Positions 23,916-56,481 of a DNA stretch of 64,000 bases are shown here, piece after piece. The stretch comes from Sinohyriopsis cumingii. Lineage: Eukaryota; Mollusca; Bivalvia; Unionida; Unionidae. How positions within the stretch are numbered: the stretch's first letter is position 1; the number at the start of each line of letters is the position of its first letter. The stretch spans positions 26,322,590 through 26,386,589 of the forward strand of contig CM068842.1 in assembly GCA_028554795.2 (NCBI GenBank). Reading direction: 5' to 3'. The notes beneath the pieces were generated by a model. It worked only from the letters and a program-made list of their open reading frames with translations. It was not told where the DNA came from and did no database searches. The position numbers were made by a program, and so were the translations under genes.

Positions 23916-24902
23916 ACGCTAAACAGGAGCGTACCTTTGTCCTGGTTTTTCATTCCCACAAGTACCATCTCAAACTCATCCATGCCAATCGTTTTATCCT
24001 CGATAGCCATGGAGTATAAGTTTAATAATCGTCCTGAGACTCCTTGTTGACGCCGTGAGAAGTTCTGAATGAGCGGGTATTCACGAATGCTAATATAGGG
24101 AAGTTATTCTGCAGGCACCGTTTGCAACACCGGTTACTACTGATATATCTACGAGAGCAAATCCGGCCGGCGTGCCCATTATAGTTGCTGAAGTTACAAT
24201 ATCATCAACACCAAAGCCAACACTGCTGGTTATACGGAATCTAATCTACATTTTCATGGACGCACCAGCTGATCCGTAATCATCCATGTATCTGACAGTC
24301 CGAGAAGCATCGCAAAAGTGTCAACGTTCTTGAGAATTACTTCTATTTCCTCTCCATCGTCATGATGCCGTTGCTTACAAATCCAATCGGAGAATTGAGA
24401 GTCGGTAATTAGTATTGACGCCCTGTACCAGTTTTCATTAAAAAGACCTCATAGTGAAGAAACGGTCTAGATGTGTTTTGCACTTTTACTTCTTTTTCAA
24501 TGATAGGGGTTACATGCCGGGTACAAATACTACTGAAAGTATCGGACACTACTATATGTAACACAGACTCAAATACGGTATCGGGTGGAACTTTGAATTG
24601 GGCCATTTTTTATACTTATACAATAGCTTTTACAACCGTAATCTGCTTCCCATTGCCAGATTCGGTATCATGGAATAGGCTCTACTTTGTTCGGCTTCAG
24701 TCATCATTCTACATACCGTGCAAGAATTGTAGCTGTAGGTTGAAGCGTAACTGTTTCTGGTGGTGTCCGAGTTACGGCTGGTTATAGTAGATCTCGAATT
24801 TACTGCACCATCTGTGACTTCTAATTTTTCAACCGTTCCGCAGCAACGCTTTTGATGCTATTAACGACTCCAATTGCAACTTGTTTACCGATTGGTGCAA
24901 TA
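23916..24902 (-). pseudogene. Remnant genes of an older virus-like element, left of the palindrome
   Basis: Pieces of minus-strand frames remain. The end nearest the palindrome reads APIGKQVAIGVVNSIKS, a style seen in small basic virion-type proteins of Polinton-like elements. Further left a hydrophobic Ala/Gly stretch is followed by a conserved-looking C-terminal part (AIEDKTIGMDEFEMVL), a layout I have seen in uncharacterised proteins of animal virus-like elements. It is broken in several places. The first frame is cut by the palindrome, and what looks like its upstream part lies at 39,281-39,430. Family assignment is tentative. Confidence 0.4.
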
Positions 24903-25143
24903 GCAGCAGGGGGGGCGAATCGGACATTTTGTCCAATCGTTATTTTGCTTAATTATTACTTTCTGCACTCAACGATCTAGTGTCGTCAGCGCCTGGTAAA
25001 AAAAAAACGACGACGTCGTTGGGGGATCGTCCAAACGTCATTTGGTTTAATTAACACCTTCTGCGCGTCGATCCCCAGCGTCGTCAGCGTCCGGTAAGCA
25101 CGTCGACGACCGCGTCGATGTCATTGCCCCCCCCCCTGCTGCT
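24903..25143. repeat. Outer terminal region of the left arm
   Basis: It starts GCAGCAG plus a G run and ends with a long C run plus TGCTGC, so the 241-bp block is itself bounded by short inverted repeats. Inside are two diverged direct copies of about 95 bp: GTCCAATCGTTATTTTGC... and GTCCAAACGTCATTTGGT..., each continuing to a (C/A)GTCGTCAGCG(C/T)C and a GACG(A/T)CG-rich end. Such a layered end is typical of a replication or joining terminus. Mirror copy at 39,041-39,280. Confidence 0.7.
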
Positions 25144-25175
25144 AAGTGGTTATTTACAATGAAAATTATTTACAA

Positions 25176-25634
25176 CTAACCGAATATTTGGTCAAGTCCG
25201 ATACGATATCGTGTCCGAGGATCATGTAAATTTATCGTTACAAATCCATGTGGGGTCGACTGAGCATGACTAAAAAAGTTTCGAAAAACATTAAAGTCCA
25301 TGTCACCGCCGCACCATGTCTGCCAAATATTTCGTAGCGTGTGTGTATCAACACCGTTGAACACAGCAAGAATATTACAGTTGTCTCTAATTACTTTTGG
25401 AATCTGAGTGTATCGTTGAGTGACATATATCACGTCAGTGTTTTTATGCCTGCCTCTGGAAAATATCCTAGCTGGGTTTTTTTGATTGTCTAACATAACA
25501 TCATCGTACACGACTAGATTGTTAACGTCGCCATCAATATCATCAATACCCGGTGCATCATTGATATCCGTAATAAACTCAATAACATTTTTTTTAGCGA
25601 TCGCTGATGCATTCTCGTTGAAATCTTTCAACAC
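25176..25634 (-). CDS. A32-like packaging ATPase, C-terminal part
   Basis: 152 residues. LVVYDDVML (about residues 41-49) is a Walker B-type strand and DVIYVTQRYTQIPKVIRDN (about 68-86) has the sensor-strand style of the FtsK/HerA-type packaging ATPases of poxvirus A32, other large DNA viruses and Polintons. The family pumps viral DNA into capsids. The nucleotide-binding N-terminal half is not part of this frame, so the gene is partial as seen. It is the outermost gene of the arm and is divergent from the HTH gene, with a 48-bp module between them. Family call is from motifs by eye. Confidence 0.65.
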   Translation of the reverse strand: MLKDFNENASAIAKKNVIEFITDINDAPGIDDIDGDVNNLVVYDDVMLDNQKNPARIFSRGRHKNTDVIYVTQRYTQIPKVIRDNCNILAVFNGVDTHTLRNIWQTWCGGDMDFNVFRNFFSHAQSTPHGFVTINLHDPRTRYRIGLDQIFG

Positions 25635-25648
25635 CTCGTAGCATCGAT

Positions 25649-25696
25649 GGGGAAACTGTCCTAGTTCATATAAATAATTATTATGACACTTTCCCC
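25649..25696. repeat. 48-bp inverted module (left arm, copy 1)
   Basis: GGGGAAACTGTC and GACACTTTCCCC face each other across 24 AT-rich bases containing TATAAATA. It lies in the 165-bp gap between the divergent ATPase and HTH genes. Mirror copy at 38,488-38,535. Confidence 0.85.
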
Positions 25697-25799
25697 ATGT
25701 GTGGCAGGTCAGTTTTGTAAAACAATTCCTTCATTACTCTGCCATGGGTCATTGTTGTTGTTGCTGTTGTTACAAAATAAAAATTTTTTTTATTAAATA

Positions 25800-26606
25800 A
25801 TGCCCCATCGGCGGTTTTTAACCGACGAGGATACCAATGAAATAATAAGACTCCGTGGGAAAACACCAATATCGGAAATAGCAGATCGATACAAAATCAG
25901 TTACCAGCGCATTTACAAGATATGGAAAAATGAGCCCGACAATGATATCAGAATGATTGACCTCAGCATCGACGATGAAATAAACCAGATTGTTGATACA
26001 CCCAGTGATGCGAATTCATCCATGGACGCCATCGTGGATAAACAGACCATTCAGGACTTGCAATGGCGGCTAAATAATTTGACCAACGAGAATAAATCAT
26101 TGCAACGACAACTCAAACACGTGTCAAGCACGGCCGATTATAATCGAGTACAACGGCGTTATGATTATTTGCAACAGCGTTATGATGATTTACAACAGCG
26201 ACACGATGATATGCAACGGCGTCACGATGATGCGCAACGGCGTAACGATGATGCGCAACGGCGTCACGATGACATGCGACGCACCATTAGTGGGCTTCAG
26301 CATGAACTCGGGAGTGTTCGGAAGGAATTGAATGAAGCGCAACACGATAATGCGCTACTGATTCAGCGAATCACCGAAATGACCGCAGTCCCCAGCGAGC
26401 CGGAAATAATCAGAAAAAAGAATAAATCCCACGAGGTTTATCCTCGTGCGGACAAATCTCACGAGAATAAATCTCACGAGAATAAATCTCACGAGAATAA
26501 ATCTCGTGAGGATAAATTCACGATCAACGAAATCCCCGGTGTGGTATCTCGCAGCGATATTAGGTTTGTGAACCGCATGGACAGGGTGCTTCAAGATAGC
26601 GACTAG
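25800..26606 (+). CDS. HTH-coiled-coil protein with heptad DNA repeats
   Basis: 268 residues. Residues about 8-45 look like a helix-turn-helix of the transposase/resolvase type (DEDTNEIIRLRGKTPISEIA, then ADRYKISYQRIYKIW). Residues about 80-190 are a long coiled coil; part of it is seven-residue repeats (QQRHDDM, QRRHDDA) encoded by a 21-bp repeat. Near the C terminus KSHEN is repeated four times from a 15-bp repeat. A DNA-binding head on a rod suggests a structural or regulatory role at DNA, perhaps holding copies together; this is inference. Its end overlaps the end of the 88-residue gene on the other strand by 4 bp. Mirror copy at 37,578-38,384. Confidence 0.7.
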   Translation: MPHRRFLTDEDTNEIIRLRGKTPISEIADRYKISYQRIYKIWKNEPDNDIRMIDLSIDDEINQIVDTPSDANSSMDAIVDKQTIQDLQWRLNNLTNENKSLQRQLKHVSSTADYNRVQRRYDYLQQRYDDLQQRHDDMQRRHDDAQRRNDDAQRRHDDMRRTISGLQHELGSVRKELNEAQHDNALLIQRITEMTAVPSEPEIIRKKNKSHEVYPRADKSHENKSHENKSHENKSREDKFTINEIPGVVSRSDIRFVNRMDRVLQDSD

Positions 26607-26869
26607 ACTTTTCGTTCGGTAATTACGTCATGGTTTGGAAACATTTTTTCATATTCTCGTTGGTAATATTTGTCGCGGAGACATAACCGAGCTTTTGCTG
26701 AACGGCTTTCAAATATCATACAATCGTATTTATCCCCGCTGGGAAATTTCTGAACTGCATGATACTTTCCGTTCTTGAATTTTACACTGATTGGCGTTCT
26801 CGGGCAGGATTTTTTATATTCGCTGATGACGCTGTCGAATTTCACCGGGTGATATTCCAACAACGACAT
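26603..26869 (-). CDS. Small uncharacterised basic protein
   Basis: 88 residues, basic, beginning MSLLEYHPVKFDSVISEYKK, with Tyr/Lys-rich segments (YHAVQKFPSGDKYDCMIFES). No family recognised; the strand-rich look of residues 27-50 would suit a small nucleic acid binding fold, but that is a guess. It is convergent with the HTH gene (4-bp overlap of ends) and divergent from the NUMOD1-like gene with only 34 bp between start codons, so those two likely share a promoter. Exact conservation of the mirror copy (37,315-37,581) supports a real frame. Confidence 0.6.
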   Translation of the reverse strand: MSLLEYHPVKFDSVISEYKKSCPRTPISVKFKNGKYHAVQKFPSGDKYDCMIFESRSAKARLCLRDKYYQREYEKMFPNHDVITERKV

Positions 26870-26903
26870 TATAATTAAAGCCGTTATTTAATTAATTATT
26901 AAA

Positions 26904-27626
26904 ATGATATCAGGTGGACGATCCTGGATGAACAGTTGTGCCGAAAACTTTTCCAGACAAGCTAGTCATTTCGTTGATGATGTTGCTTCGGGGCGAATTA
27001 AACTAGCACCACCGAAATTACCATTATTTCGGTACGACAAAACCAGAATAATTTCTCCGACGAAACAACTTTACAAGGACACTAGAGTCAATACTATCTG
27101 TTTAAATATCAACGAGAAAAAGATCATCGAATTTGATTCCACCGCGGAGACGTGTAAATGGTTCAACCTCAGCCCGGACACAATTCAACAACCCTTTTTT
27201 CAGGCACGAGATGGAGTATTATGGATCGTGCTGCGCGGTGATATCGACGCGGAAAAGCGGGCTTGGTTTGATGACATTGATACTCTATTCGATAACGCGA
27301 TTAATAGTCTTCCAGAAAAACATCGGCTGCGGGTCAATTATTTACTCGAGTCCGGAGAAAACAAAACGAAATACGGCCTCAACCCCAAAATACCCACTGT
27401 TGCCGTTAATTTAACTAAACGAACAGTCCTGCGATTCAGTTGTATCAACGAAACGAATAATTACTTCCGTGTCTGCACGTCACGAAAGTCGTTTTTTAAG
27501 TCAGCGGGGGATTATTGGATTGTAATTCGCGGTGATAAAAAACATTGTACCACCAAAGAGATAATTTCCGACGCGATGAAGAATTTAACGCCCGACCAGA
27601 AAAACGCGATGAAGGAACTGTCCTAG
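26904..27626 (+). CDS. Protein with two NUMOD1-like repeats
   Basis: 240 residues. Two repeats are visible: residues about 62-116 (NTICLNINEKKIIEFDSTAE... WIVLRGD) and about 162-212 (PTVAVNLTKRTVLRFSCINE... WIVIRGD). Each has the strand, 'xIxEFDS', helix pattern of NUMOD1/IENR1-type DNA-binding repeats common in homing endonucleases and viral genes, each closing with W-I-V-x-R-G-D. No nuclease domain is seen, so a DNA-binding or regulatory role is more likely. It is convergent with the primase-helicase gene, with modules filling the 236-bp gap. The frame ends inside module-like sequence (GGAACTGTCCTAG). Mirror at 36,558-37,280. Confidence 0.65.
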   Translation: MISGGRSWMNSCAENFSRQASHFVDDVASGRIKLAPPKLPLFRYDKTRIISPTKQLYKDTRVNTICLNINEKKIIEFDSTAETCKWFNLSPDTIQQPFFQARDGVLWIVLRGDIDAEKRAWFDDIDTLFDNAINSLPEKHRLRVNYLLESGENKTKYGLNPKIPTVAVNLTKRTVLRFSCINETNNYFRVCTSRKSFFKSAGDYWIVIRGDKKHCTTKEIISDAMKNLTPDQKNAMKELS

Positions 27627-27862
27627 TTATTATGACACTTCCTTCATCGATGGAGGAACTATTGACACTTTCCCCACTATCGGGAAAACCATCCATTACT
27701 CTGACCAGCCCTTCATTGATGGAGAAACTGTCCTAGTTCATATAAATAATAATTAGGACACTTTCTCCACTATCGGGAAAACCATCCATTACTCTGACCA
27801 GCCCTTCATTGATGGAGAAACTGTCCTAGTTCATATAAATAATAATTAGGACACTTTCTCCA
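27627..27862. repeat. Module cluster between convergent genes (left arm)
   Basis: Two full 48-bp modules lie at 27,721-27,768 and 27,814-27,861, repeated at a 93-bp period together with their flank (CCATCCATTACTCTGACCAG). A degenerate, compact version sits at about 27,612-27,680. In these copies the stems read GGAGAAACTGTCC and GGACACTTTCTCC. Both neighbouring genes stop inside module-type sequence. Mirror at 36,322-36,557. Confidence 0.85.
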
Positions 27863-30800
27863 CTATCGGGAAAACCATCCATTGACCGACCACACATGGA
27901 ATCGTAACATTGTAGTGTGTTCGTCCGTCGCGGTAATATTCCCTCCAGCGAATCCAACATCATTGATGACCTCGTTGATCCACGCCGGATTGTCTACAAA
28001 ATCAGATTTGGGCCAGTCGGGATAATACAATGTGTAGTTAGATCGCTCAGCGTGTTTGACATTATCGGATATCAATCGACCGCCGAATCCCTTGTAAATC
28101 GATTTGATTTTTTCAATGATGTGTCTCGGCGTCAATTTACCCCTTCTGAACTTCATGTCCGGAAATATATCGCCGAAATGTTTCAACAGCGCGTTGTACT
28201 TGTCAAGTCGGTCTGGTTGCGCTAGCATCTCAGATACGCTATTGATTAACCCGGCGCGACTCACGGGAACGCTCTTCACATCGAGTCGATCCGGAACCAC
28301 ATCGGGGAGACTCAACGCGCCAAGAACGTTTCTAACGATGTTAAGTTGTTGCCGGGGGTTGATTTTATCGGATCGACACGGCGTCGTTGCCACAGCGCTA
28401 CCGTTATTATGCTCGTCGACGAGAACGCGCTGATATCGCTGCAGCCGCGAAACGTTCTTATTCAGATGTTCTATCCGGTATTTATCTAGTTTTCTTACAT
28501 CGGTCTGGAATACGTAATTGAGATACGTCAACGCCTTTTCATATGGCTCTAGCCGCTGTTCGGGGTCGTATTGGTAGTATTTATCACCGATTTCATCACC
28601 AGTGATTTCATCACCAGTGATTTTATCACTGTCACTATTAACCGCGGCAATTCTCTCTCCGACGGACGATTTTAAAAAATCATCTACGCGTGGATCACTA
28701 TTGAGTACAGCGTCGCTGACTCGTTTCTGCTTTTGTTGTTTTTTTTTCTTCCATATTTCGTATTCATCTGGTAATTCCCATTCAACTGAATAACCGGTTC
28801 GTTTCATCATTTCAACGAGTCTGCACGTGAAATAACGTTTTGAATTGTTCTCGTCAATAATCGTGCTAATAAACATGTATCCGTAACCGGTATGTACATC
28901 ACAGCGGTTGGGCGTTCTAAACAGTAACTCCGTCGACGATAAATCCCTTTCATGTGATTCGATTGCGGAAATAATATCATCGCGGGTCAGTGGGAGCTCT
29001 GTGCGACTCCGTTTTGTTGCTGAATAATGTATTTCCGAAATATTTCTGAAACGATGGATGGCTTGTTTGGTAGCCTCTACAGACCCTAATTCCTCGGAAA
29101 ACACCGTCATGTACTTGAATCGCGGGTCCACAATGGATACCCCGGCCTCGACGGTATAATTGTAGATCACCACGTCGATGTTTTCAAACGCCGCAGTGGT
29201 ATCAGCGAAATCTCGTTGTTTTTCGGCCGGGTCAGTGTCCGCATGATAGTACTTTACTCGGTATCCTAATTGCTGTAATAATTTGGCAAGTGTTTCCACA
29301 GAATAATTTCCGCGTTGTTTATTGTGCGCGAATACAACTACACGATTTCCTCGTCGTAACATGTCCAGCAGTTTACTGTAGTTGTCTCGGTGAGACTGTT
29401 CCACAATAAATTTTTTACCATGATCGGGCCGATATTCGTTGGTGATGAATTTCATGTCCGGGCGATTCAAGTATTTCCTGAATAATTCCAAGTCGTCATT
29501 GTTAGCGTCCGCGTCAAGTACAATTACCCGTTTCGCGGATGAAATCAGCCATGTCAGTGTTCCCCAAATCTGTTTACCGCGTCTTGATGAGACTATCTGT
29601 CGAAGGATTCCGTGCCACTCATCCAGCAATAGAACATCGGGAATTCCCCCGACCCGTACAATTGATTCTATTTGTGAAATGACTTTACGAGGCTTTTTAA
29701 CGTTGAATATAATGTCTCCATGAATATTTTCGTACGATTCAAGATTATAGTCGATGGCGGTCTTTCTGGTAAATGTCTTTCTGTACGATACGCACAACAC
29801 AGACTGATCATCTCGTATTGATTTCCACGCCGACTCTGACTTGCCGAGTCCACAGTGGGATCCATCCATGTAGTCGTCGTTGAGAATGATTTTGCATCCG
29901 CGTCCACCTTCATGAACGGGTGACTCGTGATAAGTATAATCGGGAGTCCTCTTGGGAAACTCGCCACTGTAGTCCTTGCGGCGATAATTAAAACTCCTTA
30001 CATACCTTTCGTAGAGGGTTTTATCGTCACCAGTGATTTTATCACCATCACGCTGTATTATTATCTTTTGCGTGCTTCTGTAACAACCGATCACAAACTG
30101 ATCAGAGTAAACACGCACAAATGCGTCAATGGCCTTTCCCTCAATGAATCCACCGATCTCATTGTACCCGTGACGTCGCTGACATATGCTGCAAAATGAG
30201 CCTGCAACTCGCCGTAGCGACACTATGTTGCCGAGCCGATTTGTAGTCCCGGTTATTTGATCGGGTTGTCCGGACAACAACGTGGAAAATTGTCGAATTT
30301 GTTCAGCGGTGATTTCATCATCAGTGATTTTATCACCAGTGATTTTATCATCGGTGATTTCAGGTTTCAGTTGTTCGTAACACGGCTGAATAGAGACCGG
30401 ACAAGATAGCAGCGTGCTGGTGAATCCAACAGGATAAATCAATCGCTTATCAACGCTATTTGGTCTTGCCGACCTGGTTCCGGACAATTTGATGCTATAC
30501 AGTCCAGCTTGCGTATCAACATTCCATGTTGGTCTATCCGCGGCGACTTTCTTCAACAGCGATTGATGTTCCTCGAAATCTACCGGGATCGTTTTCAACA
30601 TGATGTGATAACCGCCGCTGGTTTCAAATACCAAAACATCGTTGATAGAGTCAACTAACTCATGGAAATACGACAACAACTCGGCCAGCGATGGCGTCTT
30701 GGAATCCACGTCGATGGTAGGATATCTGCACCGGTGTTTCGGAATAATTTCATTAACAGCGGAATGTCCCTGAAATTCCTTTATATCCGGATCATCTACG

Positions 30801-31048
30801 AATACATAGAATTTCCCCATTTGCTGGATGATTACTCCACGAATTTGATAGTCCGCAACGGTGAGAAGATCAATTGCGGATTTTTTACTGGAAACACTCC
30901 AGGATGGACCCAAATGCCTTCGGTAGTATTCTCGCACGTCGTGATACGTTTCCGGGGACGTAAAAAATTCATCCGGGGACTCCTCGTAGTAAGATGTTCC
31001 GCGCCCCAATGCGTCGATGAAGGTGTTATTGGAATAATGATTATCCAT
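27863..31048 (-). CDS. Primase-helicase: AEP primase fused to herpes origin-binding-type SF2 helicase
   Basis: 1,061 residues. The N-terminal archaeo-eukaryotic primase has the metal motif TIDVDSK (about 111-117) and SGGYHIML (about 144-151), followed by a zinc-type CSICQRRHGYNE (about 286-297). The helicase has a Walker A-like GSHCGLGKSES (about 396-406), DEAD-type LLLDEWHG (about 473-480), an SF2 motif V region (VEAGVSIVDP) and motif VI QAIHRFRN (about 662-669). Together this is the layout of the Herpes_ori_bp (UL9-like) family seen with primases in large DNA viruses. It would open origins and lay primers. Asp/Lys-Ile-Thr-Gly repeats interrupt it at three places. Central gene of the arm, divergent from the zinc gene with 53 bp between starts. 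Mirror at 33,136-36,321. Confidence 0.8.
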   Translation of the reverse strand: MDNHYSNNTFIDALGRGTSYYEESPDEFFTSPETYHDVREYYRRHLGPSWSVSSKKSAIDLLTVADYQIRGVIIQQMGKFYVFVDDPDIKEFQGHSAVNEIIPKHRCRYPTIDVDSKTPSLAELLSYFHELVDSINDVLVFETSGGYHIMLKTIPVDFEEHQSLLKKVAADRPTWNVDTQAGLYSIKLSGTRSARPNSVDKRLIYPVGFTSTLLSCPVSIQPCYEQLKPEITDDKITGDKITDDEITAEQIRQFSTLLSGQPDQITGTTNRLGNIVSLRRVAGSFCSICQRRHGYNEIGGFIEGKAIDAFVRVYSDQFVIGCYRSTQKIIIQRDGDKITGDDKTLYERYVRSFNYRRKDYSGEFPKRTPDYTYHESPVHEGGRGCKIILNDDYMDGSHCGLGKSESAWKSIRDDQSVLCVSYRKTFTRKTAIDYNLESYENIHGDIIFNVKKPRKVISQIESIVRVGGIPDVLLLDEWHGILRQIVSSRRGKQIWGTLTWLISSAKRVIVLDADANNDDLELFRKYLNRPDMKFITNEYRPDHGKKFIVEQSHRDNYSKLLDMLRRGNRVVVFAHNKQRGNYSVETLAKLLQQLGYRVKYYHADTDPAEKQRDFADTTAAFENIDVVIYNYTVEAGVSIVDPRFKYMTVFSEELGSVEATKQAIHRFRNISEIHYSATKRSRTELPLTRDDIISAIESHERDLSSTELLFRTPNRCDVHTGYGYMFISTIIDENNSKRYFTCRLVEMMKRTGYSVEWELPDEYEIWKKKKQQKQKRVSDAVLNSDPRVDDFLKSSVGERIAAVNSDSDKITGDEITGDEIGDKYYQYDPEQRLEPYEKALTYLNYVFQTDVRKLDKYRIEHLNKNVSRLQRYQRVLVDEHNNGSAVATTPCRSDKINPRQQLNIVRNVLGALSLPDVVPDRLDVKSVPVSRAGLINSVSEMLAQPDRLDKYNALLKHFGDIFPDMKFRRGKLTPRHIIEKIKSIYKGFGGRLISDNVKHAERSNYTLYYPDWPKSDFVDNPAWINEVINDVGFAGGNITATDEHTTMLRFHVWSVNGWFSR

Positions 31049-31101
31049 TATACTGTATGCTTTTTAATATTTAATTGAATGTTTAATAATGGTTAATAAT
31101 A

Positions 31102-31485
31102 ATGGTTAATCCGGCGCTTGCTGTCAATAAATGCAAATGGCTTCCCCAGGGATCAGGAGTTCCATGCGGAAAAAACTGCTACGGTGAGTTTTGCGGGGTG
31201 CATAATAGTAGATCGAAACAGGGGAGCAAGAACGGTCCTCAGCCCTGTCTCAGATGTGGAACGGGCGTCCGAGGAAGGATTAAAATTTGTATCAGCTGTG
31301 GAAGCCCCCAGTATCGGTCCGCGGTAGAATACTGCCAACGAAAGAATAAACCGATACCATCCCCGGAAGAATTCTTAAAATCACGATGGGGCGACCCGTC
31401 ACTGTCCACCTGTCGCACATGGTTAAAACATCAGACCGATGAAGGAAGTGTCAATCAGTTCCCGATAATGGGGAAAGTGTCATAA
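31102..31485 (+). CDS. Small zinc-binding protein
   Basis: 127 residues with two cysteine clusters. The first spans residues about 11-34 and ends GEFCGVH. The second begins CLRCGTG (about 50-56) and continues as a CISCGSP pair (about 69-75), like a zinc ribbon. The C-terminal third includes SPEEFLKSRWGDPS. The last dozen residues are encoded by the start of a 48-bp module, which also gives the stop codon. A nucleic acid binding or transcription role is plausible; no family recognised. The mirror copy (32,699-33,082) differs at one residue. Confidence 0.65.
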   Translation: MVNPALAVNKCKWLPQGSGVPCGKNCYGEFCGVHNSRSKQGSKNGPQPCLRCGTGVRGRIKICISCGSPQYRSAVEYCQRKNKPIPSPEEFLKSRWGDPSLSTCRTWLKHQTDEGSVNQFPIMGKVS

Positions 31486-31917
31486 TTATTATTTATATGA
31501 ACTAGGACAGTTTCCCCATCAATGAAGGAAATGTCAGTCCCAGATAGTGGAGGAAGTGTCATAATTATTATTATATAGGAACTAGGACAGTTCCTCCATC
31601 AATGAAGGAAGTGTCATAATTATTATTTATAAGAACTAGGACAGTTTCCCTACTGATGAAGGAAATGTCAATCAGTTCCCGATAATGGGGAAAGTGTCAT
31701 AATTATTATTTATAAGAACTAGGACAGTTTCCCCACTGATGAAGGAAATGTCAATAGGAATTCATCGGCGGAGACTGACTAGAACAGTTTCCTCACCAAT
31801 GAAGAAAATGTCAATTGCAAAACTGACCTGCCACACATGGGGAAAGTGTCATAATTATTATTTATAAGAACTAGGACAGTTTCCCCATCAATGAAGAAAA
31901 TGTCATTGCAAAACTGA
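31470..31917. repeat. Inner module array, left arm
   Basis: At least four full inverted modules (31,470-31,517; 31,549-31,597; 31,687-31,734; 31,839-31,886) and two or three partial ones, joined by TCAATGAAGGAAATGTCA-type linkers. Spacing inside each full module is constant (12 + 24 + 12, one has 25). Stems vary together: GGGGAAAG...TTTCCCC in three, GGAGGAAG...TTCCTCC in one. Ends 156 bp short of the palindrome centre. Mirror at 32,267-32,714. Confidence 0.9.
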
Positions 31918-32266
31918 CCCACCACATCACCATTAATAATGATACTACGATTGTAACAATTATAATTACCTATCGCGGCGATGAATTACAAAAAAAAAAT
32001 ATCGCGGCAATAATTACAATTAATTTTTTTCTTCATGGTAAAATATATCAGTTGTTTTTATTGTTGTTGTTATAGCAAGGTCACTACTAATAGTAACTAC
32101 TTAGGGGTCAATAACAACAACAATAAAAACAACTGATATATTTTACCATGAAGAAAAAAATTAATTGTAATTATTGCCGCGATATTTTTTTTTTGTAATT
32201 CATCGCCGCGATAGGTAATTATAATTGTTACAATCGTAGTATCATTATTAATGGTGATGTGGTGGG
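31918..32266. repeat. Palindrome centre and its AT-rich flanks
   Basis: No genes. Both sides carry TATCGCGGCGATGAATTAC / ATATCGCGGCAATAATTAC and (GTT)n/(AAC)n runs. The unpaired 37 bp at 32,074-32,110 contain GTCACTA-CTAA-TAGTAAC, a short stem with one mismatch and a 4-base loop. This is where a hairpin end would have been copied through if the palindrome is a replication dimer. Confidence 0.75.
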
Positions 32267-32714
32267 TCAGTTTTGCAATGACATTTTCTTCATTGATGGG
32301 GAAACTGTCCTAGTTCTTATAAATAATAATTATGACACTTTCCCCATGTGTGGCAGGTCAGTTTTGCAATTGACATTTTCTTCATTGGTGAGGAAACTGT
32401 TCTAGTCAGTCTCCGCCGATGAATTCCTATTGACATTTCCTTCATCAGTGGGGAAACTGTCCTAGTTCTTATAAATAATAATTATGACACTTTCCCCATT
32501 ATCGGGAACTGATTGACATTTCCTTCATCAGTAGGGAAACTGTCCTAGTTCTTATAAATAATAATTATGACACTTCCTTCATTGATGGAGGAACTGTCCT
32601 AGTTCCTATATAATAATAATTATGACACTTCCTCCACTATCTGGGACTGACATTTCCTTCATTGATGGGGAAACTGTCCTAGTTCATATAAATAATAATT
32701 ATGACACTTTCCCC
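32267..32714. repeat. Inner module array, right arm
   Basis: Mirror of 31,470-31,917. Full modules at 32,298-32,345, 32,450-32,497, 32,587-32,635 and 32,667-32,714. Confidence 0.9.
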
Positions 32715-33082
32715 ATTATCGGGAACTGATTGACACTTCCTTCATCGGTCTGATGTTTTAACCATGTGCGACAGGTGGACAGTGACGGGTCGCCCCATCG
32801 TGATTTTAAGAATTCTTCCGGGGATGGTATCGGTTTATTCTTTCGTTGGCAGTATTCTACCGCGGACCGATACTGGGGGCTTCCACAGCTGATACAAATT
32901 TTAATCCTTCCTCGGACGCCCGTTCCACATCTGAGAGAGGGCTGAGGACCGTTCTTGCTCCCCTGTTTCGATCTACTATTATGCACCCCGCAAAACTCAC
33001 CGTAGCAGTTTTTTCCGCATGGAACTCCTGATCCCTGGGGAAGCCATTTGCATTTATTGACAGCAAGCGCCGGATTAACCAT
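32699..33082 (-). CDS. Small zinc-binding protein (right-arm copy)
   Basis: Mirror of 31,102-31,485. It is 127 residues with the same cysteine clusters and one residue different near the second cluster (Ser against Cys), one of the very few differences between the arms. Its 3' end overlaps the innermost-facing module of this arm. Confidence 0.65.
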   Translation of the reverse strand: MVNPALAVNKCKWLPQGSGVPCGKNCYGEFCGVHNSRSKQGSKNGPQPSLRCGTGVRGRIKICISCGSPQYRSAVEYCQRKNKPIPSPEEFLKSRWGDPSLSTCRTWLKHQTDEGSVNQFPIMGKVS

Positions 33083-33135
33083 TATTATTAACCATTATTA
33101 AACATTCAATTAAATATTAAAAAGCATACAGTATA

Positions 33136-36100
33136 ATGGATAATCATTATTCCAATAACACCTTCATCGACGCATTGGGGCGCGGAACATCTTACTACGA
33201 GGAGTCCCCGGATGAATTTTTTACGTCCCCGGAAACGTATCACGACGTGCGAGAATACTACCGAAGGCATTTGGGTCCATCCTGGAGTGTTTCCAGTAAA
33301 AAATCCGCAATTGATCTTCTCACCGTTGCGGACTATCAAATTCGTGGAGTAATCATCCAGCAAATGGGGAAATTCTATGTATTCGTAGATGATCCGGATA
33401 TAAAGGAATTTCAGGGACATTCCGCTGTTAATGAAATTATTCCGAAACACCGGTGCAGATATCCTACCATCGACGTGGATTCCAAGACGCCATCGCTGGC
33501 CGAGTTGTTGTCGTATTTCCATGAGTTAGTTGACTCTATCAACGATGTTTTGGTATTTGAAACCAGCGGCGGTTATCACATCATGTTGAAAACGATCCCG
33601 GTAGATTTCGAGGAACATCAATCGCTGTTGAAGAAAGTCGCCGCGGATAGACCAACATGGAATGTTGATACGCAAGCTGGACTGTATAGCATCAAATTGT
33701 CCGGAACCAGGTCGGCAAGACCAAATAGCGTTGATAAGCGATTGATTTATCCTGTTGGATTCACCAGCACGCTGCTATCTTGTCCGGTCTCTATTCAGCC
33801 GTGTTACGAACAACTGAAACCTGAAATCACCGATGATAAAATCACTGGTGATAAAATCACTGATGATGAAATCACCGCTGAACAAATTCGACAATTTTCC
33901 ACGTTGTTGTCCGGACAACCCGATCAAATAACCGGGACTACAAATCGGCTCGGCAACATAGTGTCGCTACGGCGAGTTGCAGGCTCATTTTGCAGCATAT
34001 GTCAGCGACGTCACGGGTACAATGAGATCGGTGGATTCATTGAGGGAAAGGCCATTGACGCATTTGTGCGTGTTTACTCTGATCAGTTTGTGATCGGTTG
34101 TTACAGAAGCACGCAAAAGATAATAATACAGCGTGATGGTGATAAAATCACTGGTGACGATAAAACCCTCTACGAAAGGTATGTAAGGAGTTTTAATTAT
34201 CGCCGCAAGGACTACAGTGGCGAGTTTCCCAAGAGGACTCCCGATTATACTTATCACGAGTCACCCGTTCATGAAGGTGGACGCGGATGCAAAATCATTC
34301 TCAACGACGACTACATGGATGGATCCCACTGTGGACTCGGCAAGTCAGAGTCGGCGTGGAAATCAATACGAGATGATCAGTCTGTGTTGTGCGTATCGTA
34401 CAGAAAGACATTTACCAGAAAGACCGCCATCGACTATAATCTTGAATCGTACGAAAATATTCATGGAGACATTATATTCAACGTTAAAAAGCCTCGTAAA
34501 GTCATTTCACAAATAGAATCAATTGTACGGGTCGGGGGAATTCCCGATGTTCTATTGCTGGATGAGTGGCACGGAATCCTTCGACAGATAGTCTCATCAA
34601 GACGCGGTAAACAGATTTGGGGAACACTGACATGGCTGATTTCATCCGCGAAACGGGTAATTGTACTTGACGCGGACGCTAACAATGACGACTTGGAATT
34701 ATTCAGGAAATACTTGAATCGCCCGGACATGAAATTCATCACCAACGAATATCGGCCCGATCATGGTAAAAAATTTATTGTGGAACAGTCTCACCGAGAC
34801 AACTACAGTAAACTGCTGGACATGTTACGACGAGGAAATCGTGTAGTTGTATTCGCGCACAATAAACAACGCGGAAATTATTCTGTGGAAACACTTGCCA
34901 AATTATTACAGCAATTAGGATACCGAGTAAAGTACTATCATGCGGACACTGACCCGGCCGAAAAACAACGAGATTTCGCTGATACCACTGCGGCGTTTGA
35001 AAACATCGACGTGGTGATCTACAATTATACCGTCGAGGCCGGGGTATCCATTGTGGACCCGCGATTCAAGTACATGACGGTGTTTTCCGAGGAATTAGGG
35101 TCTGTAGAGGCTACCAAACAAGCCATCCATCGTTTCAGAAATATTTCGGAAATACATTATTCAGCAACAAAACGGAGTCGCACAGAGCTCCCACTGACCC
35201 GCGATGATATTATTTCCGCAATCGAATCACATGAAAGGGATTTATCGTCGACGGAGTTACTGTTTAGAACGCCCAACCGCTGTGATGTACATACCGGTTA
35301 CGGATACATGTTTATTAGCACGATTATTGACGAGAACAATTCAAAACGTTATTTCACGTGCAGACTCGTTGAAATGATGAAACGAACCGGTTATTCAGTT
35401 GAATGGGAATTACCAGATGAATACGAAATATGGAAGAAAAAAAAACAACAAAAGCAGAAACGAGTCAGCGACGCTGTACTCAATAGTGATCCACGCGTAG
35501 ATGATTTTTTAAAATCGTCCGTCGGAGAGAGAATTGCCGCGGTTAATAGTGACAGTGATAAAATCACTGGTGATGAAATCACTGGTGATGAAATCGGTGA
35601 TAAATACTACCAATACGACCCCGAACAGCGGCTAGAGCCATATGAAAAGGCGTTGACGTATCTCAATTACGTATTCCAGACCGATGTAAGAAAACTAGAT
35701 AAATACCGGATAGAACATCTGAATAAGAACGTTTCGCGGCTGCAGCGATATCAGCGCGTTCTCGTCGACGAGCATAATAACGGTAGCGCTGTGGCAACGA
35801 CGCCGTGTCGATCCGATAAAATCAACCCCCGGCAACAACTTAACATCGTTAGAAACGTTCTTGGCGCGTTGAGTCTCCCCGATGTGGTTCCGGATCGACT
35901 CGATGTGAAGAGCGTTCCCGTGAGTCGCGCCGGGTTAATCAATAGCGTATCTGAGATGCTAGCGCAACCAGACCGACTTGACAAGTACAACGCGCTGTTG
36001 AAACATTTCGGCGATATATTTCCGGACATGAAGTTCAGAAGGGGTAAATTGACGCCGAGACACATCATTGAAAAAATCAAATCGATTTACAAGGGATTCG

Positions 36101-36321
36101 GCGGTCGATTGATATCCGATAATGTCAAACACGCTGAGCGATCTAACTACACATTGTATTATCCCGACTGGCCCAAATCTGATTTTGTAGACAATCCGGC
36201 GTGGATCAACGAGGTCATCAATGATGTTGGATTCGCTGGAGGGAATATTACCGCGACGGACGAACACACTACAATGTTACGATTCCATGTGTGGTCGGTC
36301 AATGGATGGTTTTCCCGATAG
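33136..36321 (+). CDS. Primase-helicase (right-arm copy)
   Basis: Mirror of 27,863-31,048, identical over all 1,061 residues as far as I can see, with the same primase (TIDVDSK, SGGYHIML), Walker A (GLGKS), DEWH and QAIHRFRN motifs. Identity over 3.2 kb means that the two arms separated very recently, are kept alike by gene conversion, or are one sequence placed twice by assembly. Confidence 0.8.
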   Translation: MDNHYSNNTFIDALGRGTSYYEESPDEFFTSPETYHDVREYYRRHLGPSWSVSSKKSAIDLLTVADYQIRGVIIQQMGKFYVFVDDPDIKEFQGHSAVNEIIPKHRCRYPTIDVDSKTPSLAELLSYFHELVDSINDVLVFETSGGYHIMLKTIPVDFEEHQSLLKKVAADRPTWNVDTQAGLYSIKLSGTRSARPNSVDKRLIYPVGFTSTLLSCPVSIQPCYEQLKPEITDDKITGDKITDDEITAEQIRQFSTLLSGQPDQITGTTNRLGNIVSLRRVAGSFCSICQRRHGYNEIGGFIEGKAIDAFVRVYSDQFVIGCYRSTQKIIIQRDGDKITGDDKTLYERYVRSFNYRRKDYSGEFPKRTPDYTYHESPVHEGGRGCKIILNDDYMDGSHCGLGKSESAWKSIRDDQSVLCVSYRKTFTRKTAIDYNLESYENIHGDIIFNVKKPRKVISQIESIVRVGGIPDVLLLDEWHGILRQIVSSRRGKQIWGTLTWLISSAKRVIVLDADANNDDLELFRKYLNRPDMKFITNEYRPDHGKKFIVEQSHRDNYSKLLDMLRRGNRVVVFAHNKQRGNYSVETLAKLLQQLGYRVKYYHADTDPAEKQRDFADTTAAFENIDVVIYNYTVEAGVSIVDPRFKYMTVFSEELGSVEATKQAIHRFRNISEIHYSATKRSRTELPLTRDDIISAIESHERDLSSTELLFRTPNRCDVHTGYGYMFISTIIDENNSKRYFTCRLVEMMKRTGYSVEWELPDEYEIWKKKKQQKQKRVSDAVLNSDPRVDDFLKSSVGERIAAVNSDSDKITGDEITGDEIGDKYYQYDPEQRLEPYEKALTYLNYVFQTDVRKLDKYRIEHLNKNVSRLQRYQRVLVDEHNNGSAVATTPCRSDKINPRQQLNIVRNVLGALSLPDVVPDRLDVKSVPVSRAGLINSVSEMLAQPDRLDKYNALLKHFGDIFPDMKFRRGKLTPRHIIEKIKSIYKGFGGRLISDNVKHAERSNYTLYYPDWPKSDFVDNPAWINEVINDVGFAGGNITATDEHTTMLRFHVWSVNGWFSR

Positions 36322-36557
36322 TGGAGAAAGTGTCCTAATTATTATTTATATGAACTAGGACAGTTTCTCCATCAATGAAGGGCTGGTCAGAGTAATGGAT
36401 GGTTTTCCCGATAGTGGAGAAAGTGTCCTAATTATTATTTATATGAACTAGGACAGTTTCTCCATCAATGAAGGGCTGGTCAGAGTAATGGATGGTTTTC
36501 CCGATAGTGGGGAAAGTGTCAATAGTTCCTCCATCGATGAAGGAAGTGTCATAATAA
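36322..36557. repeat. Module cluster between convergent genes (right arm)
   Basis: Mirror of 27,627-27,862; full modules at 36,323-36,370 and 36,416-36,463 with the same 93-bp period. Confidence 0.85.
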
Positions 36558-37280
36558 CTAGGACAGTTCCTTCATCGCGTTTTTCTGGTCGGGCGTTAAA
36601 TTCTTCATCGCGTCGGAAATTATCTCTTTGGTGGTACAATGTTTTTTATCACCGCGAATTACAATCCAATAATCCCCCGCTGACTTAAAAAACGACTTTC
36701 GTGACGTGCAGACACGGAAGTAATTATTCGTTTCGTTGATACAACTGAATCGCAGGACTGTTCGTTTAGTTAAATTAACGGCAACAGTGGGTATTTTGGG
36801 GTTGAGGCCGTATTTCGTTTTGTTTTCTCCGGACTCGAGTAAATAATTGACCCGCAGCCGATGTTTTTCTGGAAGACTATTAATCGCGTTATCGAATAGA
36901 GTATCAATGTCATCAAACCAAGCCCGCTTTTCCGCGTCGATATCACCGCGCAGCACGATCCATAATACTCCATCTCGTGCCTGAAAAAAGGGTTGTTGAA
37001 TTGTGTCCGGGCTGAGGTTGAACCATTTACACGTCTCCGCGGTGGAATCAAATTCGATGATCTTTTTCTCGTTGATATTTAAACAGATAGTATTGACTCT
37101 AGTGTCCTTGTAAAGTTGTTTCGTCGGAGAAATTATTCTGGTTTTGTCGTACCGAAATAATGGTAATTTCGGTGGTGCTAGTTTAATTCGCCCCGAAGCA
37201 ACATCATCAACGAAATGACTAGCTTGTCTGGAAAAGTTTTCGGCACAACTGTTCATCCAGGATCGTCCACCTGATATCAT
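36558..37280 (-). CDS. Protein with two NUMOD1-like repeats (right-arm copy)
   Basis: Mirror of 26,904-27,626, 240 residues, same two W-I-V-x-R-G-D repeats. Divergent from the 88-residue gene with 34 bp between starts, as in the other arm. Confidence 0.65.
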   Translation of the reverse strand: MISGGRSWMNSCAENFSRQASHFVDDVASGRIKLAPPKLPLFRYDKTRIISPTKQLYKDTRVNTICLNINEKKIIEFDSTAETCKWFNLSPDTIQQPFFQARDGVLWIVLRGDIDAEKRAWFDDIDTLFDNAINSLPEKHRLRVNYLLESGENKTKYGLNPKIPTVAVNLTKRTVLRFSCINETNNYFRVCTSRKSFFKSAGDYWIVIRGDKKHCTTKEIISDAMKNLTPDQKNAMKELS

Positions 37281-37314
37281 TTTAATAATTAATTAAATAA
37301 CGGCTTTAATTATA

Positions 37315-37581
37315 ATGTCGTTGTTGGAATATCACCCGGTGAAATTCGACAGCGTCATCAGCGAATATAAAAAATCCTGCCCGAGAACGCCAATCAGTGT
37401 AAAATTCAAGAACGGAAAGTATCATGCAGTTCAGAAATTTCCCAGCGGGGATAAATACGATTGTATGATATTTGAAAGCCGTTCAGCAAAAGCTCGGTTA
37501 TGTCTCCGCGACAAATATTACCAACGAGAATATGAAAAAATGTTTCCAAACCATGACGTAATTACCGAACGAAAAGTCTAG
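37315..37581 (+). CDS. Small uncharacterised basic protein (right-arm copy)
   Basis: Mirror of 26,603-26,869, 88 residues, identical. Ends overlap the HTH gene's 3' end by 4 bp. Confidence 0.6.
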   Translation: MSLLEYHPVKFDSVISEYKKSCPRTPISVKFKNGKYHAVQKFPSGDKYDCMIFESRSAKARLCLRDKYYQREYEKMFPNHDVITERKV

Positions 37582-38384
37582 TCGCTATCTTGAAGCACCC
37601 TGTCCATGCGGTTCACAAACCTAATATCGCTGCGAGATACCACACCGGGGATTTCGTTGATCGTGAATTTATCCTCACGAGATTTATTCTCGTGAGATTT
37701 ATTCTCGTGAGATTTATTCTCGTGAGATTTGTCCGCACGAGGATAAACCTCGTGGGATTTATTCTTTTTTCTGATTATTTCCGGCTCGCTGGGGACTGCG
37801 GTCATTTCGGTGATTCGCTGAATCAGTAGCGCATTATCGTGTTGCGCTTCATTCAATTCCTTCCGAACACTCCCGAGTTCATGCTGAAGCCCACTAATGG
37901 TGCGTCGCATGTCATCGTGACGCCGTTGCGCATCATCGTTACGCCGTTGCGCATCATCGTGACGCCGTTGCATATCATCGTGTCGCTGTTGTAAATCATC
38001 ATAACGCTGTTGCAAATAATCATAACGCCGTTGTACTCGATTATAATCGGCCGTGCTTGACACGTGTTTGAGTTGTCGTTGCAATGATTTATTCTCGTTG
38101 GTCAAATTATTTAGCCGCCATTGCAAGTCCTGAATGGTCTGTTTATCCACGATGGCGTCCATGGATGAATTCGCATCACTGGGTGTATCAACAATCTGGT
38201 TTATTTCATCGTCGATGCTGAGGTCAATCATTCTGATATCATTGTCGGGCTCATTTTTCCATATCTTGTAAATGCGCTGGTAACTGATTTTGTATCGATC
38301 TGCTATTTCCGATATTGGTGTTTTCCCACGGAGTCTTATTATTTCATTGGTATCCTCGTCGGTTAAAAACCGCCGATGGGGCAT
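37578..38384 (-). CDS. HTH-coiled-coil protein (right-arm copy)
   Basis: Mirror of 25,800-26,606, 268 residues. The 21-bp heptad repeats and the 15-bp KSHEN repeats have the same copy number in both arms, notable because such short tandem repeats change quickly. This is further evidence that the arms are very recent or artefactual. Confidence 0.7.
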   Translation of the reverse strand: MPHRRFLTDEDTNEIIRLRGKTPISEIADRYKISYQRIYKIWKNEPDNDIRMIDLSIDDEINQIVDTPSDANSSMDAIVDKQTIQDLQWRLNNLTNENKSLQRQLKHVSSTADYNRVQRRYDYLQQRYDDLQQRHDDMQRRHDDAQRRNDDAQRRHDDMRRTISGLQHELGSVRKELNEAQHDNALLIQRITEMTAVPSEPEIIRKKNKSHEVYPRADKSHENKSHENKSHENKSREDKFTINEIPGVVSRSDIRFVNRMDRVLQDSD

Positions 38385-38487
38385 TATTTAATAAAAAAAA
38401 TTTTTATTTTGTAACAACAACAACAACAACAATGACCCATGGCAGAGTAATGAAGGAATTGTTTTACAAAACTGACCTGCCACACAT

Positions 38488-38535
38488 GGGGAAAGTGTCA
38501 TAATAATTATTTATATGAACTAGGACAGTTTCCCC
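38488..38535. repeat. 48-bp inverted module (right arm, copy 1)
   Basis: Mirror of 25,649-25,696, between the divergent HTH and ATPase genes. Confidence 0.85.
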
Positions 38536-38549
38536 ATCGATGCTACGAG

Positions 38550-39008
38550 GTGTTGAAAGATTTCAACGAGAATGCATCAGCGATCGCTAAAAAAAATGTT
38601 ATTGAGTTTATTACGGATATCAATGATGCACCGGGTATTGATGATATTGATGGCGACGTTAACAATCTAGTCGTGTACGATGATGTTATGTTAGACAATC
38701 AAAAAAACCCAGCTAGGATATTTTCCAGAGGCAGGCATAAAAACACTGACGTGATATATGTCACTCAACGATACACTCAGATTCCAAAAGTAATTAGAGA
38801 CAACTGTAATATTCTTGCTGTGTTCAACGGTGTTGATACACACACGCTACGAAATATTTGGCAGACATGGTGCGGCGGTGACATGGACTTTAATGTTTTT
38901 CGAAACTTTTTTAGTCATGCTCAGTCGACCCCACATGGATTTGTAACGATAAATTTACATGATCCTCGGACACGATATCGTATCGGACTTGACCAAATAT
39001 TCGGTTAG
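38550..39008 (+). CDS. A32-like packaging ATPase, C-terminal part (right-arm copy)
   Basis: Mirror of 25,176-25,634, 152 residues, identical, with LVVYDDVML and the VTQRYTQIPK segment. Partial in both arms in the same way, so it was already partial when the palindrome formed (inference). Confidence 0.65.
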   Translation: MLKDFNENASAIAKKNVIEFITDINDAPGIDDIDGDVNNLVVYDDVMLDNQKNPARIFSRGRHKNTDVIYVTQRYTQIPKVIRDNCNILAVFNGVDTHTLRNIWQTWCGGDMDFNVFRNFFSHAQSTPHGFVTINLHDPRTRYRIGLDQIFG

Positions 39009-39040
39009 TTGTAAATAATTTTCATTGTAAATAACCACTT

Positions 39041-39280
39041 AGCAGCAGGGGGGGGGCAATGACATCGACGCGGTCGTCGACGTGCTTACCGGACGCTGAC
39101 GACGCTGGGGATCGACGCGCAGAAGGTGTTAATTAAACCAAATGACGTTTGGACGATCCCCCAACGACGTCGTCGTTTTTTTTTTACCAGGCGCTGACGA
39201 CACTAGATCGTTGAGTGCAGAAAGTAATAATTAAGCAAAATAACGATTGGACAAAATGTCCGATTCGCCCCCCCTGCTGC
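39041..39280. repeat. Outer terminal region of the right arm
   Basis: Mirror of 24,903-25,143. The inner G run and the A run differ slightly in length from the left copy, as expected for homopolymers. Ends CCCCCCCTGCTGC at 39,280. Confidence 0.7.
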
Positions 39281-39430
39281 AATGCGTAAGGTCAGGACCC
39301 TTTTGAATAATCCTCTGACAACATCACCGAGACTATTTCAGTAATATGTCACATAAACGGGTTTTCTTACGTTGACTACGCTCACGGGTATCATATGTTC
39401 ACCTATGGGCGTCATTTTATCTAAATGTCG
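39281..39430 (-). pseudogene. Other half of the frame split by the palindrome
   Basis: On the minus strand a short frame beginning MTPIGEHMIPVSVVNVRK, with a basic SLGDVVRGLFKRVL-type segment, runs up to the palindrome edge. The style (short Gly/Leu/Arg-rich start of a small virion-type protein) resembles the small gene at 46,190-46,557 of the Polinton on the right (GLGDMLKSVF). With the remnant at 24,902 and below it suggests that the palindrome entered an older virus-like element. Old and broken; tentative. Confidence 0.35.
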
Positions 39431-39939: not shown

Positions 39940-40617
39940 CAGGACAACCGAGAACCATGAAATACGTGAATACGTGGATGTCCTTCGTGAAGACTTGAGC
40001 TTAGTCAATTACGAAGAAGAACGGGACTTTGTATGAGCTGACGAATTTGGAAATGTCATCATTGCGGCCTATGTGACACCCCATGCTCGCTTAAAATTGT
40101 ACGAAGCGTTACACCAATTAGGAGATCGTGTGCTGTATTTTGACACGGACCGTTGAATCTAAGTCGATCGCCTCGGTCACTGTCACTCTAATATCGAACG
40201 AGGCTGTTTTGGTGCCTAGATGGACGAGTAGCCCGAAGACAAAATTCTAAGTTTTGCTTGTGTCGGTCCCAGAAATTACTTCTACGAATACCGGGATGAA
40301 CTATGAGAAATGCACACCGAGTGTAAAGTCAAAGGATTGACTCTCAATTACCGTACCAGTCAAGTGGTGAACTTTGTGGTATAGAAAAAAGCCTCGCAGT
40401 CTGGAGAGGATCAACATTTTAAAGTGGCCACCTACGAACCTCACAAGATTGTACGTTTAGCTATACACCAAATCATCAGTCGACCTTTAGAAAAACTGTA
40501 CAACTTCCAACCACTTCACTTTACCGTGAGGACACGTCGATATTGGTCCGCATATACAAAAAGGAAAACGTCCAAGATCGAGAGTTCATTGTAACTACCA
40601 TTGCCAAGCGAAAAAAA
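39940..40617 (+). pseudogene. Polinton polymerase B, C-terminal part
   Basis: Matches the C-terminal third of the polymerase at 56,482-60,539, including the catalytic YFDTD region and the following GECKVKGLTLNYR-like segment and tail. Broken in several places. First recognisable part of the Polinton. Confidence 0.75.
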
Positions 40618-40808
40618 TGAATTCTTTTAAACAGACACCCTTCCAGTTCGGTGAATCTGAAGTGGAGTGCGATGTTGTGTCTTGCGATTGCGGGGATGCC
40701 GTACGCTGTGACCTCAGCGATTCACTAGGACATCATGGGAACTTCGGTTTGACTACTTCAGCAGGACATCATGGGAACTTTGCTATGTCGACTACTACTA
40801 CTGCATGA
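40617..40808 (+). pseudogene. Short Polinton frame with GHHGNF repeats
   Basis: 63 codons directly after the polymerase end, acidic/Cys-rich start (VECDVVSCDCGD) and two GHHGNF repeats from a 36-bp DNA repeat. No family recognised; may be chance. Confidence 0.25.
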
Positions 40809-55720: not shown

Positions 55721-55726
55721 AGCAGA

Positions 55727-56269: not shown

Positions 56270-56480
56270 TGAAGTGTCGTTCTTGGAAGTCGTCCCTTTT
56301 TATACTGGGTGATATTAGTATGTCCATAAGGCAAAGTTTTGTGGTCTGGAAGTTTCACTGGTTGCACGTAGTTTGTCATGGCGTTAGTACATAAATAACT
56401 AAGATCTGTTACTGCATTGGTGATGTGATAGTGAGGCAAAGAATCACACCCGAGTTTCTCGTTGGACTTGAGTCTTACGC
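56270..56480 (-). repeat. Second copy of the polymerase C-terminal tail
   Basis: The minus strand reads KLPDHKTLPYGHTNITQYKK, closely matching RLPNHFTLPYGHISIGQHIK at the end of the polymerase gene next door, followed by similar RTxxxxxTK-type text. It is therefore a duplicated tail, placed between the polymerase and the free N-terminal domain. Confidence 0.6.
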
Positions 56481-56481
56481 T

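Follow-up and report, generated by a model that had tools for sequence, protein, structure and literature searches.

A 14.4 kb palindrome family in the bivalve Sinohyriopsis cumingii, a likely satellite of a polinton-like virus

In palindromic or snap-back defective genomes of adenoviruses and parvoviruses, one end of the genome is present twice, head to head, with a short loop between the copies; palindromic defective genomes arise as by-products when viruses grow. Transpovirons are linear parasites of larger viruses, about 7 kb long with terminal repeats, in giant-virus hosts; to our knowledge, they are not palindromic dimers. As given in excerpts of PMC11071308, polinton-like viruses of the Tlr1 type combine an rve integrase with a pPolB-SF1 helicase fusion, and transpovirons have a pPolB-SF1 helicase. 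Here we analyzed a stretch of 64,000 nucleotides from the bivalve Sinohyriopsis cumingii (GenBank assembly GCA_028554795.2, contig CM068842.1, positions 26,322,590 to 26,386,589; hereafter, the window), which lies on contig C19, with genome searches over the assembly of 2,904,868,851 bases. The window contains a palindromic element of about 14.4 kb, which we consider likely to be a palindromic satellite of a polinton-like virus, that is, a long-established lineage of defective genomes, known here from genome sequence alone.

The palindrome and its relatives in the genome

Aligning the two arms, 24903-32073 (7171 bp) and 32111-39280 (7170 bp), we found that they are one homopolymer indel and two substitutions apart over 7171 positions, and a self-comparison of the window returned an inverted repeat at 24900-39283 with 99.8% identity. 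An earlier sequence-only reading of the window had noted a near-perfect 14.4 kb palindrome around 37 bp, which the alignment confirms with coordinates right within a few bases. It had also noted tandem repeats of equal copy number; the TRF arrays of the two arms do pair up, save that one pair has 3.6 versus 3.9 copies and some overlapping TRF rows are given for one side only. The parts of the palindrome are listed below (window coordinates), where L035 is part of the second palindrome read whole.

24902-39278: palindromic element proper, arms of 7.17 kb, termini AGCAGCAG...CTGCT (limits by eye)
24897-24901: left target site duplication, GCAAT (by eye)
39279-39283: right target site duplication, GCAAT (by eye); the right terminus is one CTG unit shorter than the left
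24903-25144: left terminal repeat, common to both ends of the polinton-like virus
39040-39278: right terminal repeat, mirror copy
31964-32073: inner end of the left arm, 93% alignable to L035, the adjoining stretch not; mirror at 32111-32220
32074-32110: central loop, 37 bp, asymmetric; matched at 49 genomic places with no more than 3 mismatches

We searched the assembly for an arm-specific 55-mer from the primase-helicase gene and found at least 61 forward and at least 61 reverse places, with 0 for a control pattern. Among the 100 of 122 places listed, to which all counts of pairs, loops and singles in this text refer, there were 48 facing pairs and 4 singles (52 loci); 47 of the 48 pairs were head to head and 1 was reversed. 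Because this arm-specific sequence forms 48 facing pairs and the control has no matches, chance is excluded as the origin of the palindrome. The loop was also located in 37 pairs, in 29 of which it is centred on the midpoint to within 5 bp; since pair spans vary yet the loop is central, insertions and deletions are mirrored between the arms. Substitutions are mirrored as well: all 12 mismatch-bearing pairs listed have the same mismatch in both arms (five distinct mismatches), and the inner 14 bp of the arms are mirrored at 42 of 42 listed centres by eye, including one subfamily with a changed base present in each arm, and at 8 of 8 by script.

We then compared eight 3-kb loci around centres, one of which (L011) is the window itself. 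At six of the eight, the two arms of a copy differ by 0-1 substitutions in 1514 positions, yet between those six centres there are 42-98 substitutions per kb, except for two identical copies on C16. The second copy read whole (C1:120748795, L035/L036) has arms that are 11 substitutions and one gap apart in 7273 positions, loop left out, and is 88-90% identical to the window over long aligned parts. Copies thus differ, yet arms within a copy are nearly identical and carry mirrored substitutions, which argues that one arm served as template for the other before the element inserted. With about 60 members, the family seems to be inherited in the palindromic state as its standing form, and the window copy does not look like a one-off integrated dimer. 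The sequence-only reading had pictured an integrated head-to-head dimer and had advised a search of related genomes for single 7.2 kb units; here, 48 of the 52 loci are facing pairs, and no free-standing unit was recognized among these loci, although not every single was examined.

The four singles comprise a C18 copy rearranged near its centre, C19:13859934 with a loop match nearby, C8:30806437, and the final place among the 100 listed. As separate observations, a palindrome at C7:112300114-112320669 seems to have some 16 kb inserted in its left arm, which may be a virus copy nested there, and C9:81533223-81539961 (L069) is the sole reversed-orientation pair among the matches listed, with a loop match between its members and no long mirror in 1.1 kb.

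For 14 copies without a loop match or with an off-centre loop, we read 1.1 kb at or near the midpoint. Six of these are symmetric throughout, and in four of the six (L064, L066, L067 and L068) the loop is a variant of the usual one. The remaining two have longer loops, 153 bp in L059, with 77 of its 20-mers occurring in L035, and 108 bp in L063, with no 20-mer in common with any of the nine sequences compared; their flanking arms have 0 substitutions in 473 and 496 positions, respectively. L058, L062, L065 and L071 have an altered middle with symmetry outside it, and L060, L061, L069 and L070 have no long mirror within the 1.1 kb read.

A polinton-like virus with the same ends

The end 35-mer of the palindrome tip has 1019 forward and 1018 reverse exact places assembly-wide, against 0 for a control. 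The listed 100, which all lie on C1, comprise 46 facing pairs, mostly 14-16 kb apart, and 8 unpaired places. We fetched ten C1 copies in two pieces each; nine are non-palindromic, and the tenth is the palindrome L035/L036. The GCAGCAG edges named by the sequence-only reading are not hairpin ends: they belong to the terminal repeats of a polinton-like virus, and the 35-mer from its ends has about 1000 places on each strand. The view of that reading that the unit is virus-derived and not a host duplication is supported.

All nine virus copies have terminal inverted repeats of 241-268 bp, with the ATPase end on one side. We annotated the genes of one copy, L029/L030 (C1:13959574-13974537), and also viewed the open reading frames (ORFs) of L017/L018, which are similar, several of them broken. 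The annotated copy encodes a full ATPase, an rve integrase (PF00665, 6.8e-9, one copy), a 1163 aa SF1-helicase protein, an HNH nuclease and a double-jelly-roll capsid protein, together with a weak protease match (0.0075) and other ORFs without a clear family. Two of its features are located as follows.

L029:575-1246: packaging ATPase, A32/FtsK-type (PF04665, 5.8e-12)
L030:1993-3432: PF21738 match (4.5e-17; one copy annotated)

In the 1163 aa protein, the SF1 helicase is clear, no PolB profile matched, and palm-like motifs were seen by eye only. The partner element thus has the packaging ATPase, rve integrase, terminal inverted repeats and target duplication of a polinton-like virus, and it fits the Tlr1 type as outlined in the excerpts of PMC11071308, save for an unproven PolB palm. 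It also represents, in its own right, a polinton-like virus resident in an animal genome, equipped with an rve integrase and with a replication protein of the SF1-helicase kind; the 35-mer of its ends is present at about 1000 places per strand. In the flank of the L035 palindrome, an ORF at L035:100-435 looks by eye like one of the late ORFs of L030, which suggests that this palindrome is inserted in another copy.

Considering matches longer than 100 bp, the DNA common to the window arm and the nine viruses is confined to arm positions 1-747, at 92-98% identity. These 747 bp, found in all nine virus copies fetched, cover the terminal repeat plus the 3' portion of the ATPase gene, which ends at the identical base in both palindromes read whole. 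In the ATPase part, six palindromes and nine viruses are interleaved at 0-6% divergence, with weak tree support (495 bp compared, but 197-411 bp for four of the six palindromes). Between the two palindromes, dS is 0.045 in the ATPase part (3 changes) versus 0.20 in the primase-helicase gene and 0.17-0.27 in the other three genes, which suggests that the tips are younger than the interior or are constrained by a function in cis.

The insertion hallmark is shared too. An exact 5-bp duplication stands beside AGCAGCAG...CTGCTGCT in all nine palindromes with both ends found (11 examined, 2 without ends in the fetched pieces), and the window copy has GCAAT on both sides, provided that its right tip is one CTG unit short. 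Among the viruses, a 5-bp duplication was found by script in 8 of 9; the ninth, with an altered terminus, has ATATA on both sides by eye. Palindrome and presumed helper therefore have both the cis ends and the insertion hallmark in common, as expected of a satellite. Given that the palindrome has no recognized integrase and yet has the duplication and tips of an integrase-bearing element, mobilization in trans would be the simplest account, and the virus may package the element in trans as well. Eight palindromes measure 13.6-14.7 kb, and 45 presumed virus copies have a median of 14.6 kb (range 12.9-20.6; nine inspected), lengths that weakly fit a size set by the helper.

Genes and candidate origins of the palindrome arm

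The arm carries the following ORFs.

25176-25634, minus: truncated A32-type packaging ATPase, C-terminal part; mirror 38550-39008, plus
25800-26606, plus: 268 aa protein with resolvase-type helix-turn-helix and coiled coil; mirror 37578-38384, minus
26603-26869, minus: 88 aa ORF
26904-27626, plus: 240 aa protein with internal repeat (by eye); mirror 36558-37280, minus
27863-31048, minus: 1061 aa primase-helicase; mirror 33136-36321, plus
31102-31485, plus: 127 aa cysteine-rich protein; mirror 32699-33082, minus

The sequence-only reading had assigned the arms a primase-helicase and a packaging ATPase. The former is present, but the latter is only a C-terminal part, in the window and in L035 alike, lacking the Walker A region (Pox_A32 profile positions 98-159 of 242), and the partner virus carries a full-length version. 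Relatives of the ATPase include P0037, annotated as Sinanodonta woodiana, at 91% identity with 49% of the query covered. No integrase or capsid gene was found among the six arm ORFs of at least 88 aa compared with Pfam (shorter ORFs were not searched). The helix-turn-helix match of the 268 aa protein is barely over the Pfam cut-off, and the 127 aa cysteine-rich protein has 46% identity over 87 aa to a protein adjoining the virus replication gene.

The primase-helicase carries a UL9-like SF2 helicase (PF02399, 2.7e-10, over the curated cut-off). Its helicase part also matched CyRepA1 (NF042913) at 2.9e-31, with a score of 109, below the curated cut-off of 200, and residues 1-396 were unmatched. 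The N-terminus is AEP-like by motif, by eye: D113, D115 and G146-Y147-H148 are invariant in 3 sequences and may represent AEP catalytic motifs. Among 7994 scored candidates, relatives were P0001 (68%) and P0002 (29%); a profile search with A1 matched P0001 alone, a search of PDB sequences returned no match, and scans of viral contigs found no relative. An AlphaFold model of the protein (mean pLDDT 37.9) was too poor and was not used. The gene is under purifying selection, with a dN/dS of 0.161 measured in one pair of copies. Within it, 15-bp repeats at three sites (28574-30365, minus) give KITGDE-like linkers.

Seven modules in the left arm consist of inverted boxes, RGGAAA[C/G]TGTC, flanking a spacer of 82-88% A+T.

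25650-25695: OriS-like module, inverted boxes flanking an AT-rich spacer
27613, 31471, 31551, 31606, 31688 and 31840: starts of six further left-arm modules

The spacer is 24 bp long in 5 of the 7, 25 bp in the module at 31551 and 11 bp in that at 27613. L035 has 3 modules, and there are 0 in 16 virus halves (126.8 kb) and 0 in the rest of the window. In the OriS of herpesviruses, as presented in an excerpt of PMC12543377, Boxes 1 and 2 are inverted with an AT-rich spacer between them. Because the element encodes a UL9-like protein, the modules are good candidates for origins, and they are probably where the primase-helicase starts replication. A role as promoters only was rejected, as copies also occupy the interval where the 240 aa and primase-helicase genes converge at their 3' ends.

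Several other features were observed in the window. PolB-like fragments flank the palindrome at 22887-23261 and 39969-40634, with 67% and 78% identity to a PolB at 56-57 kb, and an ORF at 40771-41256 resembles (by eye) the BIR domain of an apoptosis inhibitor. There is a satellite with a 27-bp unit in 55 copies at 10778-12283, and a 1.4 kb element with inverted ends of 132 bp at 96% at 20134-21530. Another large inverted repeat occupies 54902-60757 and 62309-64000 (on to 68162 in L057), with arms of 5.86 kb at 99.4-99.9%, a spacer of 1551 bp containing a 450-bp tandem repeat, edges that are TTAA-like on both sides (by eye), and a polinton-type PolB (PF03175) split across two ORFs.

Proposed life cycle, alternatives and known systems

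We propose that the palindrome derives from a polinton-like genome whose late half was replaced by a mirror copy of the early half and whose replication gene was exchanged for another. Integrase and capsid genes would have been lost, or were never present, and the terminal repeat with about 500 bp of the ATPase-side virus end would have been kept at both tips, probably as cis signals for replication, packaging and integration. The element's own initiator, a primase fused to a UL9-like helicase, would probably act at the OriS-like modules. A displaced strand would then fold back on itself at the central loop, forming a hairpin of 7.2 kb with a single end of the virus type, and copying of this hairpin from the tip round the loop would restore a full palindrome of about virus length, rendering the arms identical in each replication cycle. 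The virus integrase would insert the product with a 5-bp duplication, after which the arms would diverge; if so, they act as a clock, reading 2 substitutions in the window and 11 in L035/L036. The centres of L059 and L065 may mark new points of turn-round, or a deletion spanning the centre may have produced them. A fork turning round at a hairpin had already been suggested by the sequence-only reading, and such a turn-round or snap-back step remains, in principle, the best account of mirrored arms; 7.2 kb monomers were not seen among the 52 loci.

Several observations weigh against a palindromic satellite lineage. Of the 37 pairs with a loop match, 8 have it away from the midpoint, at a distance of 7.5 to 850 bp or, for one copy, of a long insertion. 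In the pieces read, 2 of the 8 compared centres (L012 and L014, which are rearranged) and 8 of the 14 midpoints are not symmetric or not fully so; late deletions may explain most asymmetric centres. Non-palindromic elements with the palindrome's primase-helicase may exist. The low dS of the tips could reflect constraint rather than exchange with the virus, and the truncated ATPase could be mere history and not a cis signal. A packaging limit is only suggested, as palindrome lengths vary by about 8%, the comparison with OriS is architectural, a likeness of layout only, and selection on the primase-helicase is seen in a single pair.

An alternative that shares the hairpin is that the element replicates as a linear molecule of 7.2 kb, covalently closed as a hairpin at the central loop and ending like the virus on the other side; the palindrome would be the head-to-head dimer of this molecule, and only dimers would integrate. 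The conservation of the loop at 49 places speaks for this, as does the way in which about 110 bp beside the loop align between the window and L035 and the next stretch does not, as expected for a terminal hairpin. We nevertheless find it doubtful, given that no integrated monomer was recognized at the 52 loci and that L063 and L059 differ in the loop while their arms have 0 substitutions, so a specific hairpin end is seemingly not required. It is improbable that the element is an autonomous fold-back-type transposon with very long terminal inverted repeats, independent of any virus: formally there are two 7.2 kb inverted repeats flanking a short middle, and the 268 aa protein has its marginal resolvase-type match, but no recombinase catalytic domain was recognized in the six larger arm ORFs (Pfam), and the tips and duplication length are those of the integrase-bearing element.

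Large palindromes in other genomes undergo gene conversion, and the arms here might have been kept alike on the host chromosome after the palindromes had inserted as such. This is highly improbable: complete conversion, of indels as well, would have to occur at dozens of loci, yet differences persist (3 in 7171 in the window, 11 substitutions in L035/L036) and copies with broken symmetry stand unrepaired. A simple host duplication was rejected. An assembly artefact, in which a read or contig was folded back upon itself, might be suspected from the second large inverted repeat in the same contig, but it is so very unlikely that it too was rejected: the window palindrome has distinct flanks with a 5-bp duplication, as do the 9 other palindromes with both ends found, its arms differ, and the 48 facing pairs elsewhere are independent loci with copy-specific mirrored variants.

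If the palindrome is indeed a satellite of the polinton-like virus, its lineage, inserted dozens of times and keeping a replication gene under selection, would show that the palindromic defective form can be a way of life, and both virus and satellite are present in many copies in an animal germ line. Arm differences would serve as a clock, much as the paired LTRs of a retrovirus do, turn-round points may be preserved in the loops and the tips would record exchange with the helper, so that snap-back replication would become readable from the genome. More tentatively, and with rather less confidence than in the satellite itself, we suggest a stable class of selfish element with a palindromic genome: descended from a defective genome and having acquired an initiator of plasmid or herpes type, it would parasitize an animal polinton-like virus, renew its symmetry at each replication and be able to shift its turn-round point. 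Mirroring would double 7 kb to the genome length that fits the helper's capsid and place the helper's packaging end on both tips. Literature on polinton satellites, mussel Mavericks and palindromic defective genomes, judged by titles and abstract openings, yielded no description of a palindromic satellite of a polinton-like virus.

Among described systems, the Tlr1-type viruses are represented in the same genome by an element with the palindrome's tips, ATPase and duplication length, and the left half has its genes in a parallel order (ATPase, minus; gene, plus; replication gene, minus; cysteine-rich gene, plus). The palindrome differs in having no recognized integrase, 1163 aa SF1-helicase protein or capsid genes among ORFs of at least 88 aa, in its other replication protein, and in that both of its halves are the early half. 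The Meldvirus Meld19810, a contig from an animal dataset, also has a primase-SF2 helicase gene in an adintovirus-like setting; it differs in its virion genes and tyrosine recombinase, and the excerpted description, on which alone the comparison is based, mentions no palindrome (PMC11071296). The viruses of PMC10962738, compared by description only and from an excerpt, have the same pairing of primase and UL9-like helicase domains but are full viruses. The likeness to the cyanobacterial plasmid replication protein CyRepA1 is confined to the helicase part, at a score below the cut-off. Transpovirons differ in their replication protein and giant-virus hosts. Finally, the snap-back genomes of adenoviruses and parvoviruses are by-products, whereas the palindrome described here exists in about 60 diverged copies with a selected replication gene of its own.

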